Shown piece after piece: positions 31,312 to 40,056 of a DNA stretch of 46,848 nt. Each line of letters starts with the position of its first letter. Position 1 is the stretch's first letter. Source of the stretch: Burkholderiaceae bacterium (GTDB taxonomy: Bacteria > Pseudomonadota > Gammaproteobacteria > Burkholderiales > Burkholderiaceae_C); assembly GCA_905339355.1 (NCBI GenBank), contig CAJPFZ010000222.1:1-46848 (forward strand), read 5' to 3'. The notes below the pieces were generated by a model. It was not told where the DNA came from. It did no database searches and saw only the letters and a program-made list of their open reading frames with translations. Both the position numbers and the translations under genes were made by a program.

Positions 31312-33390
31312 TCAGGCCGTGGCGTCGGGCGCCCCCGGACCCGGCGTCTGACGCAGCGTCACGCGGCCTTCGTGCCAGGCGCGCTCGAAATCGCCCTCGA
31401 TTGCGCGCAGCGACTGCGCATCGCTGGCCGATGCCGACACCAGGCCCACGGCGCGATTGCGGCCCTGGCTCTTGGCGGTGTACAGCGCCATGTCGGCGAG
31501 GTTGACCGCCTGCTCCCACTGCAGCGCCACCCGGTGGGGCGGCAGCGGAAAGCTCGCATAGCCGATCGACGCGGTGACCCACAGCGCCTGGTTCTCCACC
31601 AGCACCGGCGTGCTGCCGATGCTCGCGAGCACGCGCGCGGCCAGCTGGTCGGCCTGCTCGGTGCCGAGCGCTTCCGCGACGATCAGGAACTCCTCGCCCC
31701 CCCAGCGAACCACGAGGTCCTCGTCACGCACCGCCGCGTTGAGGCGCCGCGCCACTTCGATCAACACCACGTCGCCGGCAGCATGGCCATGGCCGTCGTT
31801 GATGTGCTTGAAGTGATCGATGTCCACCAGCAACAGGCTGCCCGCGAATCCGCGCTTGCCATCGCCCGCGGTGGCCTGCATCACCGCATGGAAATGGCGG
31901 CGATTGGCGAGGTCGGTCAAGGCGTCGCGTTCGCTTGCGACGCGCAGCAGCGCGTGGCTCGCCTCGAGCCTGCGGTGGGTCTCGCGCACGCGGCGCACCA
32001 GCAGCACCGCGAACACCACCGACAGCGTCATCAGCGCGGCCAGCACCAGCCAGATGCGCTGCGTCAGGTCGCGGTTGGCAAGCGCGGCAGTCTTCAAGGC
32101 GTTGTCGCTGCGAACGAGCTCGATGCGGCGCTGCTCGGCCTCGGCGTCGTAGCGGGCCTGCATCTCCTTCAGCGCAAGATCCTGGTTGCGCTGCATCAGC
32201 TGCGCGCTCAGCGCGCGCTCGCGGTGGTACAGCTCGAGCGCGTCGCGCATCTCGCCGACGGCGGCCAGCGCCTGGCCGAATTCGCGCAGCGTCGTCGCCT
32301 GCTCCGCTTGCGCGCCGCTGCGCACCTCGAACTCCAGCACCCGCGCCATGTCCTTCCGGCCTTCGGCGATGCGCCTCAGGCCGATCTTCGCCAGGCCCGC
32401 GTTGTTGACGAGCGTGCGCTCGGTGCGCCGGTCGTTGAACTCGCGCACCGTCGGCAGCGCCTCATTGGCGGCGCGCAGCGCGTCGGCCGGGCGGTGGCGG
32501 CGAACGTAGGAGTCGCTCAGGTTCACGAGCAGCTGCGCCTGCAGCCGGCGCGCCCCGGCCTGACGCGCGAGCTCGTAGGCCTCCTCCGTCGCGCGCAGCC
32601 CCGCGTCGGCGTCGCCGCGCAGGTCGGCCACCAGCGCCTCGTAGCTTTTCGCGCGCGCCATCAGCGCCGCATCGCCCACCTGTGCGGCCATGCGCTTGGC
32701 TTGGGCCACGGAGCGCTGCGCGTCTTCGTGCTGGCCGGCGTTGGCCGCGATGAAGGCCAACGAGCCGAGGCTCAGCGCCTTGCGGGCGATGTCGCCCGCG
32801 GCGTCGGCGAGGTCGAGCGCTGTCTGCGCGTGCTGCTGCGCCAGCGGAAACCGGCCAAGGCTCATGGCACGGCGCTCCAGCAGCTGCAGCGCGCGCCAGA
32901 GCGCGCGGTAGTCGCAGGTCTGCGCGGGCAGCGTGCCGTCGGCGGTGCGGCTGCAGCCGGGCTGGTAGATGGCCGCCGCCGACTCCGCGTGCGTGGCGGC
33001 CACGGCAAGCTGGCCTGCGGTCTGCGCCGCGACGGCGCGCACCAGGCTCGCGTCGGCGGCCGCCAGCGGCAGCGCGCCGTCGCGCGACATCTCCCGCAGC
33101 TCGTCGGCCAGCGCGTGGGCCTCGGCTTCGCGCCCCGCCTGTGCCTGGATCAAGCCCTCGGTCTGCAGCAACAGGCGCGCCGCCGCGCCGGGCGGCGTAG
33201 CGGCGCGCAGCTGCCGCAGCTGCGCGATCGCCGCCGCCGGATGATCGAAGCCGTCGCGCAGCAGCCGGTCGATGCGCGCTTCGAGCGCATCCGCGGCGCA
33301 GGCGGCATGCGGCAACAGTAGCGCGGCGCACGCCAGCGCGAGCCGGCGCAGGCCGCTCGTCATGGCGGAGCCGGCGCACAGCCGTCTCAT
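31312..33390 (-). CDS. TPR-GGDEF diguanylate cyclase (second of tandem pair)
   Basis: 692 aa. A signal peptide or anchor near the N-terminus (ending HAACAA) precedes a long helical TPR-like periplasmic region, a coiled segment (about 440-480), one membrane helix (WLVLAALMTLSVVFAVLLV) and the GGDEF domain. The catalytic motif is intact GGEEF (564-568), with the inhibitory-site motif RDED five residues before it, so the enzyme should make cyclic di-GMP under product control. The start at 33390 overlaps the upstream paralogue's stop as ATGA and has GAGG 8 nt before it. An internal ATG at 33363 would give a more compact signal peptide but has no ribosome-binding site. Confidence 0.9.
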   Translation of the reverse strand: MRRLCAGSAMTSGLRRLALACAALLLPHAACAADALEARIDRLLRDGFDHPAAAIAQLRQLRAATPPGAAARLLLQTEGLIQAQAGREAEAHALADELREMSRDGALPLAAADASLVRAVAAQTAGQLAVAATHAESAAAIYQPGCSRTADGTLPAQTCDYRALWRALQLLERRAMSLGRFPLAQQHAQTALDLADAAGDIARKALSLGSLAFIAANAGQHEDAQRSVAQAKRMAAQVGDAALMARAKSYEALVADLRGDADAGLRATEEAYELARQAGARRLQAQLLVNLSDSYVRRHRPADALRAANEALPTVREFNDRRTERTLVNNAGLAKIGLRRIAEGRKDMARVLEFEVRSGAQAEQATTLREFGQALAAVGEMRDALELYHRERALSAQLMQRNQDLALKEMQARYDAEAEQRRIELVRSDNALKTAALANRDLTQRIWLVLAALMTLSVVFAVLLVRRVRETHRRLEASHALLRVASERDALTDLANRRHFHAVMQATAGDGKRGFAGSLLLVDIDHFKHINDGHGHAAGDVVLIEVARRLNAAVRDEDLVVRWGGEEFLIVAEALGTEQADQLAARVLASIGSTPVLVENQALWVTASIGYASFPLPPHRVALQWEQAVNLADMALYTAKSQGRNRAVGLVSASASDAQSLRAIEGDFERAWHEGRVTLRQTPGPGAPDATA

Positions 33391-35441
33391 GCCGCGACCT
33401 CGCTGGTGGCCGACGGGCCTTGCAGCAGCGTGAGCGTCACCTGCCCGTCGCGCCAGGCCGACTCGAGCGAGCGCGTGATGTCGTCCAGCGTCGCCTCGTT
33501 GCGAGCCTGCAGCAGGCGCACGCCGTAGGCGCGGTTGCGCCCGTGCGCCTTGGCGAGGTACATCGCGGTGTCCACCAGGTTGATTGCCCGCTCCCACGAC
33601 ACCGGCAGCATCATCGGCTCGATCGGGAAGGTCGCGAAGCCGATCGAGCCGGTGACGTGGATGGAGTCACCCTCGTGCCGCACGGGCGCGCCGGCCATTG
33701 CGCTGAGCATGCGGTTGGCGAGCGCCTCGACCTGCTCGGGCGAGAGCGTGCGCACGACCACGAGGAACTCCTCGCCGCCCCAACGCACGATCAGGTCCTG
33801 CTCGCGCAGCGTCTCGCGCAGCCGCCGCGCCATCTCGATCAGCACGGCGTCGCCGGCGGCGTGGCCGTGCGTATCGTTGATGCGCTTGAAGTGGTCGATG
33901 TCGATCAGGAACACGGTGCCGGCAAGCTTGCCGTCGGCCGCGAGCTGCTGCATCGCCGCCTGGAAGTGGCGCCGGTTGGCGAGTCCCGTCAGCGGATCGC
34001 GTTCGCTTTGCGCCAGCAGCTGGACATTGCTCGATTCGAGCGCGCGGTTGCTGTTGCGCATGCGCCGATACAGCATCGTCAGCACCACCAGCGACAGCAC
34101 GAAGGTCGCCGCCAGCAGCCACCACAGCCGCTGGCGCAGGTCGCCGCGGCGCAGCTGTTCGCTCTTGAGGGTGTTCTCGCGCTGGAGCAGCTCGAGCTGG
34201 CGCGTGCGCCGCTCGGCGTCGAAGCGCTCCTGCATCTCGACGATCGCCTTCTGCTGGTCGCGCTGGAAGATCTCGTCGTGCAGCCGGCGATAGCGGTGGT
34301 AGGCGTCTACCGCGCCGGCCAGGTCGCCGGCGCGCTCGAGGTACTGCGCCAGCTCGAGCAGCGACGAGACCACGCTCGGGATCGCGCCGCGCCGCTCGTC
34401 GATCTCGATCGCCTCGTTGACGAAGCGCTTGCCGAGCGGGATGTTCTTCATCGAGATGTGCGCGAGCCCGATGTTGGCGAGTGCGACGATCTCGCCATTC
34501 ACGTCCTTGAGCTCGCGCACCAGCGGCAGCGCCTGCTCGGACAGCGCGAGCGCCGTCTTGTACTGGCCGCTCTTCAGGTAGAAGTCGGCCAGGTTGGCGA
34601 GGTACAGCGCCTCGTCGGACTTGGCGCCGGCGCGGCGCGCGCTGTCGATGGCCGCCTCCATCGCGCGCCGTTCGCCTTCGCGGTCGCCGAGTTCGCCGCG
34701 CAGGAAAGTTTCGGTGTTGTGCGCGCGGCCGAGCGCCGCGTGGTCCTGGGCTTGCTGGGCGATCTGCATCGCCTCGGCATTGAGCGCGACGGCGCGGTCG
34801 ATCTGCTTGGCCTCGTAGTAGAAGTAGGCGAGCCCGCTTCGGACCTCGGAACGGCGCCAGGCGTCGCCGATCCGGTCGGCCAGCTGCAGCGCCTCGTGGA
34901 ACAGGCGCAGCGCGTCCTCGAGCTTGCCGGCATCGCCCTTGATGCCGGCCTGCGCGAGCAGGTAGCGCAGCCGCGTGCGTGGCGCCGGGTCGGGCGGCAG
35001 CCGCTGCATCGCTTCGCTCATCAGCGCATCGGCCTTCTGCAGGTTGCCTCGCTGCGCCAGCGCCCGCGCGCGCACGAGCAGCGCCGCCGAGCCGGCCGCG
35101 GCGCCGGCGGGGCTACGCACCCACTCCGACAGCGTCTGCGCCACGCGGTCGGCCGCCTCGGTGTCGGACGCGAAGGCGAGCAGCAGGCCGCGCACCGTCA
35201 ACAGCTCGAGCCGCTCGGGGCTGAACGGCGCGGTCAGGGGCAGCAGCTGCTCGAGGGCGTGCGCGGCTTCGCGCGGGCGGGCGTCGCCCTGGTGCTCGAT
35301 CTCGGCGATGCGCGCGCTGAAGTCCGCAGCACCGTGCGTCGCGGGCGGCGCTTGCGCCGGCATGGCGACCGCGGCGCAGGCGGCCCACAGCAGCGCGCCG
35401 GCCGTGGCCGCGCGCAGCAGCGCCCGCAGCACTTGCGTCAT
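33387..35441 (-). CDS. TPR-GGDEF diguanylate cyclase (first of tandem pair)
   Basis: 684 aa, same architecture as the next gene. Signal peptide (about 1-27), TPR-like helical repeats in the predicted periplasm (about 40-420), a membrane helix at about 439-458, then GGDEF. The active-site motif is GGEEF at 555-559 with the inhibitory-site REQD at 546-549, so it is predicted active. TPR landmarks include LGRAHNTETFLRGELGDREGERRAMEAA and ANLADFYLKSGQYKTALALSEQALPLVREL. The two proteins share clear similarity in GGDEF and in repeat layout, so they probably arose by tandem duplication. It starts divergently from the MaoC gene. Confidence 0.91.
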   Translation of the reverse strand: MTQVLRALLRAATAGALLWAACAAVAMPAQAPPATHGAADFSARIAEIEHQGDARPREAAHALEQLLPLTAPFSPERLELLTVRGLLLAFASDTEAADRVAQTLSEWVRSPAGAAAGSAALLVRARALAQRGNLQKADALMSEAMQRLPPDPAPRTRLRYLLAQAGIKGDAGKLEDALRLFHEALQLADRIGDAWRRSEVRSGLAYFYYEAKQIDRAVALNAEAMQIAQQAQDHAALGRAHNTETFLRGELGDREGERRAMEAAIDSARRAGAKSDEALYLANLADFYLKSGQYKTALALSEQALPLVRELKDVNGEIVALANIGLAHISMKNIPLGKRFVNEAIEIDERRGAIPSVVSSLLELAQYLERAGDLAGAVDAYHRYRRLHDEIFQRDQQKAIVEMQERFDAERRTRQLELLQRENTLKSEQLRRGDLRQRLWWLLAATFVLSLVVLTMLYRRMRNSNRALESSNVQLLAQSERDPLTGLANRRHFQAAMQQLAADGKLAGTVFLIDIDHFKRINDTHGHAAGDAVLIEMARRLRETLREQDLIVRWGGEEFLVVVRTLSPEQVEALANRMLSAMAGAPVRHEGDSIHVTGSIGFATFPIEPMMLPVSWERAINLVDTAMYLAKAHGRNRAYGVRLLQARNEATLDDITRSLESAWRDGQVTLTLLQGPSATSEVAA

Positions 35442-36051: not shown

Positions 36052-37344
36052 TCAACGCCGCGCGCGGCCACCGCGCAGCAGCAGGTGCAAGAGGATTGCG
36101 CCGAAGGTGGCGGTGCCGATGCCGCCCATCGAGAACTTGTCGCCGAACTTCAGCGTGTAGTCGCCCGTGCCGAGGATCAGCGTGACGGCGGCGACGATGA
36201 GGTTGACGTTGTCGCCGAAGTCGACCTTGTTCTCGACCCAGATCTTGGCGCCGGCGACCGCGATGAGCCCGAACACCACGATGCTGACGCCGCCCATCAC
36301 CGCCAGCGGGATGGTCTGCAGCAGCGCGCCGAACTTGGGGCTGAAGCCGAGCACGATGGCGATCAGCGCGGCAACGACGAACATCGCCGTCGAGTAGATC
36401 TTGGTGGCCGCCATCACGCCGATGTTCTCGGCATAAGTCGTGACCCCCGTGCCGCCGGAGGCGCCGCTGACGATGGTGGCGAGCCCGTCGCCGATGAAGG
36501 CACGGCCCATGTACGGGTCGAGGTTGCGGCCGGTCATCGCGCTCACGGCCTTGATGTGGCCGAGGTTCTCGGCGATCAGGATCACCGCCACCGGCGCGAT
36601 CAGCAGCATCGCCTGGGCGGTGAACACGGGCGCGGCGAAGCCGGGCAGGCCGAACCAGGCGGCGTCGGCCACCTTGGCGAAGTCGATCGGCTTGCCGAGC
36701 CCGGCGCCGTTGGTGAGCACGGCGTAGACGATGCTCGCGACGATCAGGCCGACGAGGATCAGCAGGCGCTGCGTCATGCCGCGCGTGTAGACCGCGACCA
36801 GCCCGACGCTGACGAAGGTGACGGCCTGCATCCAGGCGTCGAAGCCGGTCGGCGCCATGTTCTTGATCGGCACGCCGGCGAGGTTCAGGCCGATCACCGC
36901 GACGACCGCGCCGGTCACCACCGGCGGCATCAGCGCCTCGATCCAGCCGGTGCCGACCGCCGCGACGATCACGCCGATCAGCATGACCACCACGCCGCAG
37001 GCGATGATGCCGCCCAACGCGACGCCGAGGTTGCCGTTGGCACCCTGTCCGGCATAGCCGGTGGCGGCAATCACCACCCCGATGAAGGCGAAGCTCGAGC
37101 CCAGGTAGCTTGGCACCTTGCCGCCCACCACGACGAAGAAGATCAGCGTGCCGACCCCGCTCATCAGGATCGCGACGTTGGGGTCGAAGCCCATCAGCAG
37201 CGGCGCCAGCACGGTGGCACCGAACATCGCGATGACGTGCTGCACGCCCAGCGCCGCGGTCTGCGGCCAGGGCAGGCGCTCGTCGGGTGCGACGACGCGG
37301 CCGGGTTGCGCGTCGGTCACGCGCCAGGCAGGGATCAAACTCAT
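36052..37344 (-). CDS. Uracil/xanthine-type permease (NCS2, UraA/RutG-like)
   Basis: 430 aa, about 14 helices. The ATG at 37344 is preferred over one 14 codons earlier because GAGGAG precedes it at good spacing. NCS2 landmarks are LGVQHVIAMFGATVLAPLLMGFDPN, GSSFAFIGV, the helix-8 segment with AVILIAENLGHIKAVSAMTGRN, and SGASGGTGVTTYAENIGVMAATKIYS, which contains the substrate-contact Glu/Gly residues of UraA. Uracil is the likely cargo, though thymine or xanthine remain possible. No pyrimidine catabolic genes are adjacent. Confidence 0.92.
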   Translation of the reverse strand: MSLIPAWRVTDAQPGRVVAPDERLPWPQTAALGVQHVIAMFGATVLAPLLMGFDPNVAILMSGVGTLIFFVVVGGKVPSYLGSSFAFIGVVIAATGYAGQGANGNLGVALGGIIACGVVVMLIGVIVAAVGTGWIEALMPPVVTGAVVAVIGLNLAGVPIKNMAPTGFDAWMQAVTFVSVGLVAVYTRGMTQRLLILVGLIVASIVYAVLTNGAGLGKPIDFAKVADAAWFGLPGFAAPVFTAQAMLLIAPVAVILIAENLGHIKAVSAMTGRNLDPYMGRAFIGDGLATIVSGASGGTGVTTYAENIGVMAATKIYSTAMFVVAALIAIVLGFSPKFGALLQTIPLAVMGGVSIVVFGLIAVAGAKIWVENKVDFGDNVNLIVAAVTLILGTGDYTLKFGDKFSMGGIGTATFGAILLHLLLRGGRARR

Positions 37345-37521
37345 GGGGGCTCCTCGGTTTTCTTGGTTCTTCGCGGCGTGTGGCACGCGAGGGCTCTGGC
37401 CGGTCGTCGTGCGACCGCCGAAATCCAGTGTAGGGGCCGAGGGATGGGGAACGGAAGGGGGCGCGCGCGCTGGCCGCCGGGTGCCGGCGTCCGAGGCGCT
37501 GAGTACAGCGATCGGGCCGAC

Positions 37522-37589
37522 AAAAAAGAAGGGGAGCGGGACAGTGAGCCGGGGACTCGCTCTCTCCTACCCCGGCGTGCCCGCTCCCC
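37522..37589 (-). terminator. Nested hairpin intrinsic terminator
   Basis: An outer perfect 10-bp stem GGGGAGCGGG / CCCGCTCCCC (37531-37540 with 37580-37589) encloses an inner 7-bp stem GCCGGGG / CCCCGGC (37548-37554 with 37570-37576). Read on the minus strand the structure is followed at once by TTCTTTTTTG. That is a strong rho-independent terminator for transcripts arriving from the right. The only candidates for that transcript are the two small genes at 37658-38077 and whatever precedes them. It also insulates the permease gene. Confidence 0.85.
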
Positions 37590-37657
37590 TGGACGTCAAC
37601 TTTTCGACGAACTCAGGAGGGCTTGTACCCTCGCCATTCAATCGAGTGAGTGCTTCT

Positions 37658-37846
37658 TCACTTGACGTCGACAGCGCCGGAACGCAGAAACAGGCAGAGC
37701 TGCGCGGGCGCGCGGCTCGATTGCAGAACCTGGAAGCCTCGGGCCGGCGCAGTGGCCGCTGCCGGTGAGACCGGCGCCGGGCGGCGCGGTTCAGCGGGGC
37801 TGCGCTTCAGGACCGAGGGCATGCGGGGAACGTAGGTGCTGGACAT
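37658..37846 (-). CDS. Small protein, 62 aa, unrecognised
   Basis: Second gene of a probable two-gene operon. The ATG at 37846 is 6 nt after the previous stop and has AGGAT 8-9 nt upstream. About four fifths of codons end in G or C. The protein is basic, with a Pro/Ala/Arg-rich first half and a hydrophobic patch near the C-terminus (AQLCLFLRSGAVDVK). There is no clear membrane helix, signal peptide or known motif. A strong terminator begins 69 bp after its stop. I recognise no family; it could be a real small protein or a chance frame in GC-rich DNA, but spacing, ribosome-binding site and terminator favour a gene. Confidence 0.5.
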   Translation of the reverse strand: MSSTYVPRMPSVLKRSPAEPRRPAPVSPAAATAPARGFQVLQSSRAPAQLCLFLRSGAVDVK

Positions 37847-37852
37847 GGCGGG

Positions 37853-38077
37853 TCATCCTGCGGTGAATTCGCTGGGGGCAAAGTTCGGAACCGGCGGCAT
37901 CGTCAGGGCCTGGGCGGCGCGGCTGATCCAGGCGCCGAGGTTCAGGGGGGACGGCAGGCGCGGCGCGCTGGGCTGGGCCAGGCGCAGCATCGAGGAAGCG
38001 CCGCCACGGCAGCTGGGCGCTGCGCGGCGAGTCTGGCGCGGGCCCGCGGTGGGGCGAAGACGAGAATTGAGCGGCAT
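37853..38077 (-). CDS. Small protein, 74 aa, unrecognised
   Basis: First gene of the probable small operon. The ATG at 38077 has AGGAC 9 nt upstream. A longer in-frame start at 38176 exists but lacks such a site. The N-terminal 35 residues are Arg/Pro/Ser-rich and very basic; the C-terminal 40 are less charged, with PLNLGAWISRAAQALTM and an acidic end. About four fifths of codons end in G/C. One cysteine (Cys23). No family recognised. The 178 bp upstream, before the hydrolase stop, includes a comparatively AT-rich stretch near 38235-38260 that could hold the promoter, but no convincing -35/-10 pair was found. Confidence 0.5.
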   Translation of the reverse strand: MPLNSRLRPTAGPRQTRRAAPSCRGGASSMLRLAQPSAPRLPSPLNLGAWISRAAQALTMPPVPNFAPSEFTAG

Positions 38078-38255
38078 ACGACGGCGTCCTGTGTCTGTAG
38101 GCCGCCCATCGGGCCGGCCCGTGTGTCCACACAGGCGCAGCTTCCATGCCAAGGCGATTGCCGCCGCCGTGCCCAACTCCTGCCGGGCGGACGGACAAAT
38201 TGCGTCTTTCAGCCGGTGCGTGCGTACCGAAGCGTGACCAAAAAGTGAACGGTTG

Positions 38256-39185
38256 TTACTTGCGCGGACTGGATGTGTCAGTCGGAGTGGTGCCGACCAA
38301 GTGCCGCAGCGCTGCGATGGCCGCCGCCGCGTCCCCCAGCACCCGCGTGTGGCTCAGGCCCTGCGTTGCATGCAGCGTGGCCTGCGGCAGCGCCCGCACG
38401 ATGCGCTGAGATGCGGCGATCGGCGCCACCCGGTCGCCCTCGTCGTGGATGACGAGCGTCGGGTGTGCGACGCGCGGCCCCAGCCACTCGGGCTCGAACT
38501 CGGCAAGCGGCACCCCTTCGACGGTCTCGATGTGCGCCCGCATGCGCTGCGGCACGCTGTCGGCGAGTCCGAAGCTGCCGGCGAACCAGCGCATGAAGAC
38601 GGCCGGCGGCGACGAGGGCGCCACCAGCACCAGCCGGCCGACCGGCAGGCCGCGCGCCGCCGTGTGCAGCGCCGCCAGCGCGCCCAGCGAGTGGGCGACG
38701 ACGGCGTGCAGGGGGCCCAGGCGCGACGCCGCGGCATAGATCGCGCGGGCGAACTGCGGCAGCGTCGAGCGCCAGCCGCTGCTGCGGCCGTGCGCCGGAA
38801 AGTCGAGCAGCACAGGGTCGAAGCCGGCTTCAGCGAGTGCGTCGCCGAGGGGGCGCATCTGCAGCCCGCTGCCGGCCCAGCCGTGCACCAGCAGCACCAC
38901 GGGGCGGCCGGCGTCTACGTCGGCGCGGCGGTAGGCGGCGAGTGTCACGCCCTCGAAAGGCCAGGCCACCGTGGTCCACGGGGCCGGCACGGCGCGGCGC
39001 ATCGCGAACTTCCAGGGCAGCGGGGTGAAGAACAGGCGCAGCGCAGCGCGCGTGCCCCAGGCAGGCGCCAGGGCGTCGATGGTGCGCAGCGTGGCGCCAA
39101 GCGCCTGGGCCGTGCGGCTTGCGGCGTAGAAGGCAGCGGCGGGGTTCGCGGGGTTGGCGGGGTTGGCGGAAGTCGGTGGGTTCAT
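38256..39185 (-). CDS. Alpha/beta-hydrolase family protein
   Basis: 309 aa from the ATG at 39185, which has AGGAG 9 nt upstream; longer frames to 39314 overlap the small membrane-protein gene antisensibly to its frame and are rejected. The fold landmarks are VVLLVHGWAGSGLQMRPLGD (oxyanion loop), LDFPAHGRSSG, the nucleophile Ser in VAHSLGALAAL, Asp in HDEGDRVAP and His in QGLSHTRVLGD. Residues 5-17 contain a short Asn-Pro-Ala repeat. No signal peptide. It lies 28 bp after the 39-aa gene and probably shares its TetR-controlled promoter. Substrate unknown. Confidence 0.9.
   Translation of the reverse strand: MNPPTSANPANPANPAAAFYAASRTAQALGATLRTIDALAPAWGTRAALRLFFTPLPWKFAMRRAVPAPWTTVAWPFEGVTLAAYRRADVDAGRPVVLLVHGWAGSGLQMRPLGDALAEAGFDPVLLDFPAHGRSSGWRSTLPQFARAIYAAASRLGPLHAVVAHSLGALAALHTAARGLPVGRLVLVAPSSPPAVFMRWFAGSFGLADSVPQRMRAHIETVEGVPLAEFEPEWLGPRVAHPTLVIHDEGDRVAPIAASQRIVRALPQATLHATQGLSHTRVLGDAAAAIAALRHLVGTTPTDTSSPRK
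39141..39167. repeat. 9-bp minisatellite inside hydrolase gene
   Basis: Three tandem copies of a 9-bp unit (GGGGTTCGC once, GGGGTTGGC twice) encode Ala-Asn-Pro repeats at the hydrolase N-terminus. The in-frame unit length means slippage would change the linker by three residues without breaking the frame. Confidence 0.75.
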
Positions 39186-39213
39186 CTCTGGCTCCTGTCG
39201 GGCGGGCGTCGCC

Positions 39214-39333
39214 TCAAAACGGGCCGAAGTCGGCGTTGCTGCGCGGCACGCCGCGCCACAGGCGAGCCACCAGGCACGCGGCACGTACGGCGGCGAAAGC
39301 CAGCAGGAAGACAAACAGCAGGGCGATCAACAT
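39214..39333 (-). CDS. 39-aa single-pass membrane microprotein
   Basis: An ATG at 39333 with AAAGGAA 5-6 nt upstream opens a 39-codon frame ending TGA at 39214. The peptide starts MLIALLFVFLLAFAAV, a membrane helix of about 20 residues, followed by a basic-aromatic tail (RLWRGVPRSNADFGPF). It lies between a TetR-type operator (39350-39367) and the hydrolase gene 28 bp downstream, so it should be the first cistron of that unit. Nearly all codons end in G or C. I do not recognise the family; size and topology suggest a membrane-associated regulator or accessory peptide. Confidence 0.65.
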   Translation of the reverse strand: MLIALLFVFLLAFAAVRAACLVARLWRGVPRSNADFGPF

Positions 39334-39349
39334 GGCGTTTCCTTTCGTG

Positions 39350-39367
39350 TTCGCACGATCGTGCGAA
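39350..39367. promoter_or_regulatory. TetR-type operator, perfect 18-bp palindrome
   Basis: TTCGCACGATCGTGCGAA is perfectly self-complementary and ends 16 bp before the microprotein ATG. Its 12-bp core GCACGATCGTGC recurs once, in the promoter of the adjacent tetR gene. Two copies flanking one TetR gene strongly suggest the binding site of that regulator. No clear -35/-10 pair surrounds this copy. Confidence 0.8.
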
Positions 39368-39426
39368 ATTGAGACAGGGTGGACGACGACGGGTGGGGTG
39401 TCTCCGAAGCGTTCCGGGTGAGCCGA

Positions 39427-40056
39427 TCAGAGAGGCTGCTCGCCGGACGACGACGCCGGCTGCAGCGAGCGGATCAAGCGCTCGTAGGCGGTCCACGCAC
39501 GATCGGCGGCGCGCGGGTCGCGAAGAAAACGGGCGTCGCGCATCAGCGCGACGAACAGGCCGTCCATCTCGAAAACGAGCTGGTCGGCGTCGATGTCGGG
39601 TCGCAGGTGGCCGAGTTCGATGGCCTGGATCACCGAGCGCTTGAGCGCGGTGCGCCAGCCCTGCACGCCTTCGAGCAGCTTGTCACGCAGCGGGCCGTCG
39701 CGGTCGTCGAACTCGAACGCGCCGGCGCAGTAGATGCAGCCCTGGCGGATTTCGACGTCGCGGGCGCGCTGCAGCCACAGCCGCATGATCGCGTTCAGCC
39801 GCGGCAAGCCGCGGGGCTCGCGCATGGCGGGCACGAACACGTCCTGCAGAAAGCGGCGGTCGTACTCCTCGATGACGGCGATCTGCAAGGCCTCGCGCGA
39901 GCCGACCCGCGAGAACACGCCGCTCTTGGACAGGCCCAGGCGCTTGGCGACCTCGCCGATGGTCAGGCTCTCCAGCCCGTCGGTCGCCGCCATCTCGATG
40001 GCGGTGTCGAGGATGGCGGTGAGCGTGAGGCCGCTGCGATGAGTCTTGGTTTCCAC
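39427..40056 (-). CDS. TetR/AcrR-family transcriptional repressor
   Basis: 209 aa. The N-terminal helix-turn-helix domain (about 12-60) reads AILDTAIEMA, then LTIGEVAKRLGLSKSGVFSRVGSREAL. The C-terminal ligand-binding domain has CIYCAGAFEFDDRDGPLRDKL, a segment of the TetR subgroup with a conserved FDDR(D/P)G motif. The start is a GTG at 40056; no other start codon occurs before the DNA-binding helices. The promoter -10 ends only 6 nt before this GTG, so its mRNA is predicted leaderless. It probably represses itself and the microprotein-hydrolase unit, 94 bp downstream on the same strand, through the shared palindrome. The inducer is unknown. Confidence 0.93.
   Translation of the reverse strand: METKTHRSGLTLTAILDTAIEMAATDGLESLTIGEVAKRLGLSKSGVFSRVGSREALQIAVIEEYDRRFLQDVFVPAMREPRGLPRLNAIMRLWLQRARDVEIRQGCIYCAGAFEFDDRDGPLRDKLLEGVQGWRTALKRSVIQAIELGHLRPDIDADQLVFEMDGLFVALMRDARFLRDPRAADRAWTAYERLIRSLQPASSSGEQPL

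Follow-up and report, generated by a model that had tools for sequence, protein, structure and literature searches.

A candidate RpoN-controlled operon encoding two small basic proteins and ending in a structured RNA, from one family of Burkholderiales

Two short consecutive frames on the minus strand, followed by a strong hairpin, raise the question of whether such a locus holds genes at all and, if it does, what the proteins and the RNA might do. The frames lie in a 46,848-nt stretch from a Burkholderiaceae bacterium (referred to here as the window), and a sequence-only reading of that stretch had described them as an unrecognised small-protein operon with its own terminator, naming a non-coding RNA as the alternative. 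The frames are called P1 and P2, and the features of the locus are collected in Table 1.

Table 1. Features of the P1/P2 locus in the window
Feature	Position	Strand	Description and basis
Upstream dyad 1 (CTGACACATCCAGTC), enhancer-like	38267..38281	(-)	TGAC/GAC..GGTC(A/G) by eye across loci; imperfect in the window
Upstream dyad 2 (GTAACAACCGTTCAC), enhancer-like	38245..38259	(-)	Commonest form TGTAAC-N6-CTTAC
Putative sigma-54 -24/-12 promoter	38135..38151	(-)	TGGCATG-GAAG-CTGCGC; recurrence across loci (see text)
P1	37853..38077	(-)	74 aa; core PSCRGGASSMLRL and a predicted helix; family search, codon tests, AlphaFold2
P2	37658..37846	(-)	62 aa; probably disordered; C-terminal FQVLQSSRAPAQLCLFLRSGAVDVK with clamp-type QLCLF; family search, motif tallies, background count, AlphaFold2
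Stem before the main hairpin	37592..37669	(-)	Arms GACGTCAA (from 37669, overlapping the end of P2) and TTGACGTC (37599-37592); sequence, fold
Structured RNA/intrinsic terminator	37522..37600	(-)	13-bp stem with bulged U, inner stem, loop GAGAGCGAG, U-run; covariance model R1

Two small genes under coding constraint

Both frames start with ATG and are separated by 6 nt, and AGGA precedes each start codon, so the basic description of two closely spaced minus-strand frames of 74 and 62 aa with ribosome-binding sites was confirmed. Third-position GC is 0.82 in P1 and 0.81 in P2, against 0.90-0.95 in three neighbouring genes. The products are very basic, with pI values of 12.0 and 11.6, and neither has a Pfam or NCBIfam match at E<=1 or a match in PADLOC; PHROGs gives one weak match for P2 (E 0.48). 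As the sequence-only reading had it, no recognised family accounts for either product, and P1 and P2 are best described as two protein families that match no curated family searched. The operon is preceded, on the same strand, by an alpha/beta-hydrolase-like gene, a TetR-like gene (assigned by eye, NCBIfam giving nothing at E<=1e-10) and an oligopeptide-type ABC transporter, the ATPase of which scores above the NF008453 cut-off, with the YejF and GsiA models below theirs. The downstream neighbour is an NCS2-type permease.

Short Pro/Arg/Ala-rich frames in GC-rich genomes often look coding, and the present frames, which are of that composition and come from a GC-rich genome, could on that ground be taken for spurious frames lying over a terminator. 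Conservation makes this very improbable indeed. DNA similarity extends over the region in 4/4 other genomes of the genus that were examined, with both frames open and the hairpin almost unchanged; frames broken in close relatives, which the sequence-only reading had given as one refutation, did not occur, and its description of an unrecognised two-gene operon is supported. The substitution pattern that it proposed to check is also found: in the five genus genomes, a set chosen for DNA similarity with no motif involved, changes within the conserved blocks fall mostly at synonymous sites (pS 0.588 and pN 0.135 in the P1 core; pS 0.503 and pN 0.072 in the P2 tail).

A wider pairwise codon test used 28 distinct P1 and 30 distinct P2 sequences caught by motif patterns. 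In this set, pN is lower than pS in 352/378 P1 pairs and 374/435 P2 pairs, the remaining 26 and 61 pairs showing no such difference. Median dN/dS values of 0.66 for P1 and 0.68 for P2 indicate weak selection over the whole proteins, because large parts of both drift. For the whole conserved blocks pN is biased low, since the motif columns by which the sequences were collected lie inside them; with the pattern columns left out, pS and pN are 0.344 and 0.140 in P1 and 0.513 and 0.277 in P2. Several different codons are used for the conserved residues of both proteins. Together with the family profile matches described below, these tests indicate that P1 and P2 are real coding genes under coding constraint, and the spurious-frame reading was rejected on the cross-genome conservation and the codon tests.

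Profiles of the two proteins were matched to 399 genomes of the family at a threshold of E<=0.001. The P1 profile (A2) matches 40/399 genomes, in 17/141 genera, and the P2 profile (A1) matches 27/399, in 10/141 genera; 22 genomes are on both lists, and in five genomes of this search a weak P2 match occurs with no P1 match. A wider P1 profile matches 3/399 genomes of the order, of which two belong to the same family and one is marginal (E 8e-4), and the operon has so far been seen only in one family of Burkholderiales. The 22 named loci, gathered with the peptide pattern CRGGASS[LV]LR, come from Rhizobacter (a member of Sphaerotilaceae), Piscinibacter, Methylibium and metagenome-assembled genomes. 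A tblastn search places the same ABC-transporter ATPase upstream in 16/22 of them; L100 retains the hydrolase, the TetR-like gene and the permease, and none of the five neighbours was found within the available DNA at L083, L091, L094, L095 and L098. P1 is barely recognisable in three genomes (G088, G199 and G135), and in one genome (G219, locus L137) a single 62-aa ORF contains both cores, RGGASSLLRL ... QQLSLFGPP. It is on this conservation across genomes that the beyond-chance status of the operon is judged to rest.

Some more divergent loci were also detected. A second, diverged set of P1, P2 and RNA is present at L052 (G131:C816), in the same genome as L058; no other genome searched has two sets. 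Weak P2 profile matches occur in four genomes of the genus g153 (L041, L048, L049 and L050), and near the one at L041 there is a weak RNA match of 28.9 bits; these may be very diverged members. Directly before the P1 start codon, many loci other than the window preserve a GGAYGTCGTTG stretch that extends beyond the Shine-Dalgarno sequence and is perhaps a translational control site.

A sigma-54-type promoter and upstream dyads

Sigma-54 promoters are recognised by a GG-N10-GC core of the TGGCAC-N5-TTGC type. The core TGGCATGGAAGCTGCG at 38151-38136 agrees with this consensus at its fixed spacing and lies about 60 bp before P1, and a transcript would be expected to start near 38125. The strict pattern has one match in the window, with 0.28 expected, and it is also matched in 26/100 shuffles of the window. 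Taken by itself, the window is thus weak proof; the weight of the promoter call lies instead in its recurrence across loci. The pattern GGYAY-N6-TGC is rightly placed at 51/52 loci, which give 35 rows after identical ones are dropped and 34 distinct sites, L096 being L068 at a second match. The one exception, L104, is from the same genome as L120, in which the box reads TGGCATG-N4-GCGC. Among loci selected by the RNA, the box is found by pattern in 13/18, in addition to the variant in L120, and was not found in three loci of the genus g83 (L127, L128 and L131) or in L132, which is on a short contig. A sigma-70 promoter was considered and rejected, none being found at 37000-39500.

Upstream of the promoter are two dyads that resemble enhancer sites. 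Dyad 1 falls within the 3'-terminal part of the alpha/beta-hydrolase gene and has the general form of roughly GACnAAnCCGGTC across loci. A loose pattern for dyad 2 matches 25/35 rows and misses 10/35. The distances from dyad 2 to the GG of the -24 element are 79, 89, 99-101, 108-112 or 122 bp, in steps of about 10.5 bp, or about one helical turn. Over the 25 rows, phase coherence is 0.76-0.84 at periods of 10-11.5, a broad peak that fixes the period poorly. For the five cluster values (79, 89, 100, 110 and 122 bp) it is 0.96, with P ~0.003 against random spacings, although these values were chosen after inspection and the loci, where related, are not independent observations. With up to three mismatches allowed, the double dyad occurs once in 6/8 genomes, always at the P1/P2 operon, and is absent from the window's genome (G000) and from G002, where it is degenerate. 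Since it is found only at the operon's own site, it offers no regulon from which a function could be read. Taken together, the promoter and the dyads suggest that the operon is probably switched on through RpoN.

A structured RNA at the 3' end

The hairpin extends from 37590 to 37530 and is followed by a T-run to 37522. It had been described as a nested hairpin of 10+7 bp; the nesting and the T-run are present, but the outer stem is of 13 bp with one bulged U, around an inner stem of 7 bp. Its folding energy is -40 kcal/mol (z -3.1), and 1/200 shuffles folds as well. A terminator scanner omitted it, the loop being longer than the scanner limit of 8. Stems of the GGAC..GTCC type, like the one before the main hairpin, can be seen by eye in other genera.

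A covariance model, R1, was built from 17 sequences and matches 37/329 family genomes at E<=0.01. Of these matches, 34 are strong (>=55 bits) and come from 15 genera; the other three, at 24.8-27.4 bits, were treated as chance. Outside the family, only the window's own genome matches among 200 genomes of the order, and the two further matches among 171 genomes of the class (26.0 and 24.2 bits) were also treated as chance. The strong match is in single copy in 33/34 genomes, on which basis the hairpin was rejected as a dispersed repeat. Two copies were found in G131 and in G003, the latter not among the R1 matches listed.

Covariation was examined in 53 matches from 62 chosen loci, 43 of them distinct and one (L041) weak at 28.9 bits. 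Paired bases fill 97.1% of cells, 13/17 pairs show two-sided change, and 0/500 shuffles are as good; the alignment was fitted to the model and leans towards it, and sliding the partners lowers pairing to 51-64%. The bulged U and the loop are near-invariant in the 43 distinct rows, a degree of invariance that exceeds what a terminator needs.

The RNA and the two genes are not always found in the same place. In the genus g83, of which three of the four RNA-bearing genomes were read (loci L127, L128 and L131), the RNA stays downstream of the same ABC-transporter gene, and neither P1 and P2 nor the promoter was found there. Conversely, the RNA was not found at the P1-bearing loci L065/L099 and L068/L096. 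The operon and the RNA are thus usually found together but can be separated. The non-coding RNA that the sequence-only reading offered as its alternative is borne out insofar as the hairpin is a conserved structured RNA that persists in g83, but it does not exclude the operon. Its statement that nothing else could use the terminator is only partly right, because a sister genome, G003, has a near-copy behind another gene, so that the element can serve other genes. This near-copy (L016, 991-1072 on the minus strand) has 89% identity over 78 query bases and follows what appears by eye to be a LivK-like binding-protein gene, with no P1 or P2 seen there. At the g83 loci the place of P1 and P2, which lies very approximately 150-570 bases upstream of the loop of the RNA, is occupied by two small ORFs. 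They start with MK and combine a W-x-x-W motif, or something like it, with a hydrophobic segment rich in Ala. In the same three loci the hairpins are preceded by CTCCTCC.

No Rfam family reaches its gathering score within the window. The Xanthomonas RNA sX12 (RF02231) likewise has a stem ahead of a GC-rich terminator hairpin, but the present RNA scores 15.3 bits (E 6.5) where the gathering score is 106, and is not a member. Two described betaproteobacterial RNAs, S17 of B. pertussis (PMC11722255) and NcS25 of B. cenocepacia (PMC10117139), also end in intrinsic terminators. The S17 sRNA (precursor) is described as holding a putative 32-residue ORF; it is transcribed from a sigma-A promoter, and a stretch of 27 nt close to a C/U-rich loop is conserved (PMC11722255). 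On a comparison of descriptions, the P1/P2 RNA is set apart by its sigma-54-type promoter, its two ORFs and its conserved terminator loop and bulge.

The tail of P2 and the possible role of the operon

AlphaFold2 gives low-confidence models of both proteins, with one helix of note in P1 (residues 44-58, pLDDT 65) and no secondary structure in P2 (pLDDT 64). A profile search for relatives of P2 with solved structures returned none at E<=10. P1 has the conserved core CRGGASSLLRL. P2 varies from 41 to 64 aa across loci, and its best conserved part is its end, VLQ[S/T]xRAPAQLSLFLRPG. This end contains a pentapeptide that corresponds to the DnaN-binding consensus QL[S/D]LF (PMC12309361), also given in the form QLxLF (PMC4549789). 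In the window the pentapeptide is QLCLF, with C at the third position in place of S or D. Among 30 distinct P2 tails, 21/30 have QL[S/C]LF, a figure biased upward because the tails were collected with a motif-like pattern, and 23/30 have QxxLF. The nine tails that deviate from QL[S/C]LF are QRSLF (two), QLSFQF (three), QLSFFF, QLSLY, QLSLW and QLSLL. The pattern missed the P2 tails at 5/51 loci, three of which end in QLELDF (one) or QLELQF (two), and no recognisable tail was found at L073/L095, which represent one genome. In three further genera the tail is QLTLPW, QLCLPF or QRALPL, the last in G094. Most of the deviating tails, among them QLELDF, QLELQF, QLSFQF, QLTLPW and QLCLPF, look hexapeptide-like and not decayed; a tight-binding clamp peptide, QLSLPL, has been described (PMC12309361).

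In the window and the 22 named loci (23 loci; stop-to-stop frames of >=40 residues), QL[SDC]LF occurs 15 times in 604,655 six-frame residues, and all 15 occurrences are in P2. Polymerases, Hda, repair proteins, transposases and a few toxins are known to bear clamp-binding motifs. By eye, the known clamp users of the genus have looser versions: MKQIPLA[L/F/I] in Hda (four genomes), LPLFD in Pol IV (three genomes) and ELDLF in a UmuC-like protein (one genome). The P2 tail looks, from these comparisons, like a plug for the DnaN sliding clamp.

The reading that is considered reasonably probable is therefore of an RpoN-controlled bicistronic operon that encodes two basic, mostly disordered micro-proteins, of which P2 would dock on the clamp, and that ends in a structured RNA terminator. 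An enhancer-binding protein would bind the two conserved dyads and activate sigma-54 polymerase at the conserved promoter, giving a single mRNA of about 0.6 kb from which the two constrained frames would be translated. The QL[S/C]LF tail of P2 may occupy the peptide-binding cleft of DnaN, where P2 would either compete with polymerases and Hda or bring something to them. P1 may act together with P2, because both cores share one ORF in G219. Replication or repair might thereby be retuned under the condition sensed by the activator, and for the nature of that signal the peptide-type transporter next to the operon gives no more than a hint. The hairpin would end transcription and protect the 3' end of the mRNA; it may in addition build up as a small RNA, with the loop as its pairing site. 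A more far-reaching version, which is regarded as doubtful, holds that the sigma-54 transcript has a dual function: a P1/P2 complex occupying the clamp would slow or redirect replication, and the 3' hairpin, with its near-invariant loop, would be a separate trans-acting RNA that reprograms mRNAs under the same signal. In that case the enhancer-binding protein might sense a nutrient signal, the oligopeptide-type transporter hinting at peptides or nitrogen.

Other explanations differ in which product they hold to be central. It is possible, if somewhat unlikely, that the principal product is the RNA: a precursor driven by sigma-54 would release its 3' end as a regulatory sRNA, with its two stems and U-run and with the loop GAGAGCGAG as seed, and the ORFs would be secondary passengers. 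The g83 loci, where the RNA stays behind the transporter gene with P1, P2 and the promoter not found, are consistent with this, as are the near-invariant loop and the near-copy behind another gene in G003. However, the P1 core and the P2 tail are constrained at the protein level, the RNA is unmatched at the P1-bearing pairs L065/L099 and L068/L096, and plain terminator function accounts for the stem and the U-run. An explanation that keeps the proteins central but gives the QLSLF tail another partner, such as a protease, a polymerase or a membrane target, and treats the clamp-consensus match as convergence, is also viewed as possible though not favoured. Linear motifs are short, the clamp assignment is drawn from sequence, and the P1 core, for which no motif is known to us, is equally conserved. 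Against such convergence, the background count has no QL[SDC]LF outside P2, and most of the deviating tails fit pentapeptide or hexapeptide forms of the clamp motif.

A toxin-antitoxin pair acting on DnaN, in which P2 would block the clamp and P1 would restrain P2 in the manner of SocAB or RipAB, is improbable. Two small adjacent genes with a clamp-type motif on one of them would suit such a pair, and SocB is described as binding the clamp through a motif (PMC9690074) and the RipA toxin as acting on DnaN (PMC12795458). The operon nevertheless has a shared chromosomal place, with the ATPase upstream in 16/22 named loci, and there is a single copy in 33/34 genomes that have a strong RNA match, unlike mobile modules. 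The fused ORF in L137, the sigma-54 promoter and the small size of P2 (41-64 aa, with no predicted structure) also argue against it.

The preferred reading, of an RpoN-controlled operon with a clamp-docking P2, can be compared with known clamp ligands. The tail QLSLF of PolC, the peptide QLSLPL and transposases represent proteins with the DnaN clamp-binding motif (PMC12309361, PMC4549789). Like them, P2 has a consensus pentapeptide near its C-terminus, in a usual place and in a tail without predicted structure; unlike them, it has no recognised enzyme or folded domain, being, at 41-64 residues, little more than a tail, and it stands behind a sigma-54-type promoter. Small modules with a product described as acting on the clamp, as P2 would do, are those of SocB in Caulobacter (PMC9690074) and RipA in S. 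pneumoniae (PMC12795458); P1/P2 differs from both in its shared chromosomal place, its sigma-54 promoter and, in one genome, the presence of both cores in one ORF. That a product can take the docking site of the clamp is already known from SocB (PMC9690074). The setting, with a sigma-54-type promoter, two micro-proteins, a structured 3' RNA and a shared chromosomal place, is new to the authors. Open-licence literature on small proteins that bind the clamp or are linked to RpoN, and on the sRNAs of these genera, yielded no account of the operon.

If the preferred reading is true, these previously unnamed genes may link an environmental signal to DNA replication, and would form a direct line from that signal to the replisome. 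They would place a tiny, nearly motif-only protein behind an enhancer-dependent promoter in ten or more genera, mostly in one chromosomal place, and would add two protein families and one structured RNA without match in the curated families searched here. Elsewhere on the minus strand of the window, at 31312-35441, two head-to-tail ORFs (31312-33597 and 33387-35441) both contain GGEEF and, by eye, have the look of paralogous diguanylate cyclases.
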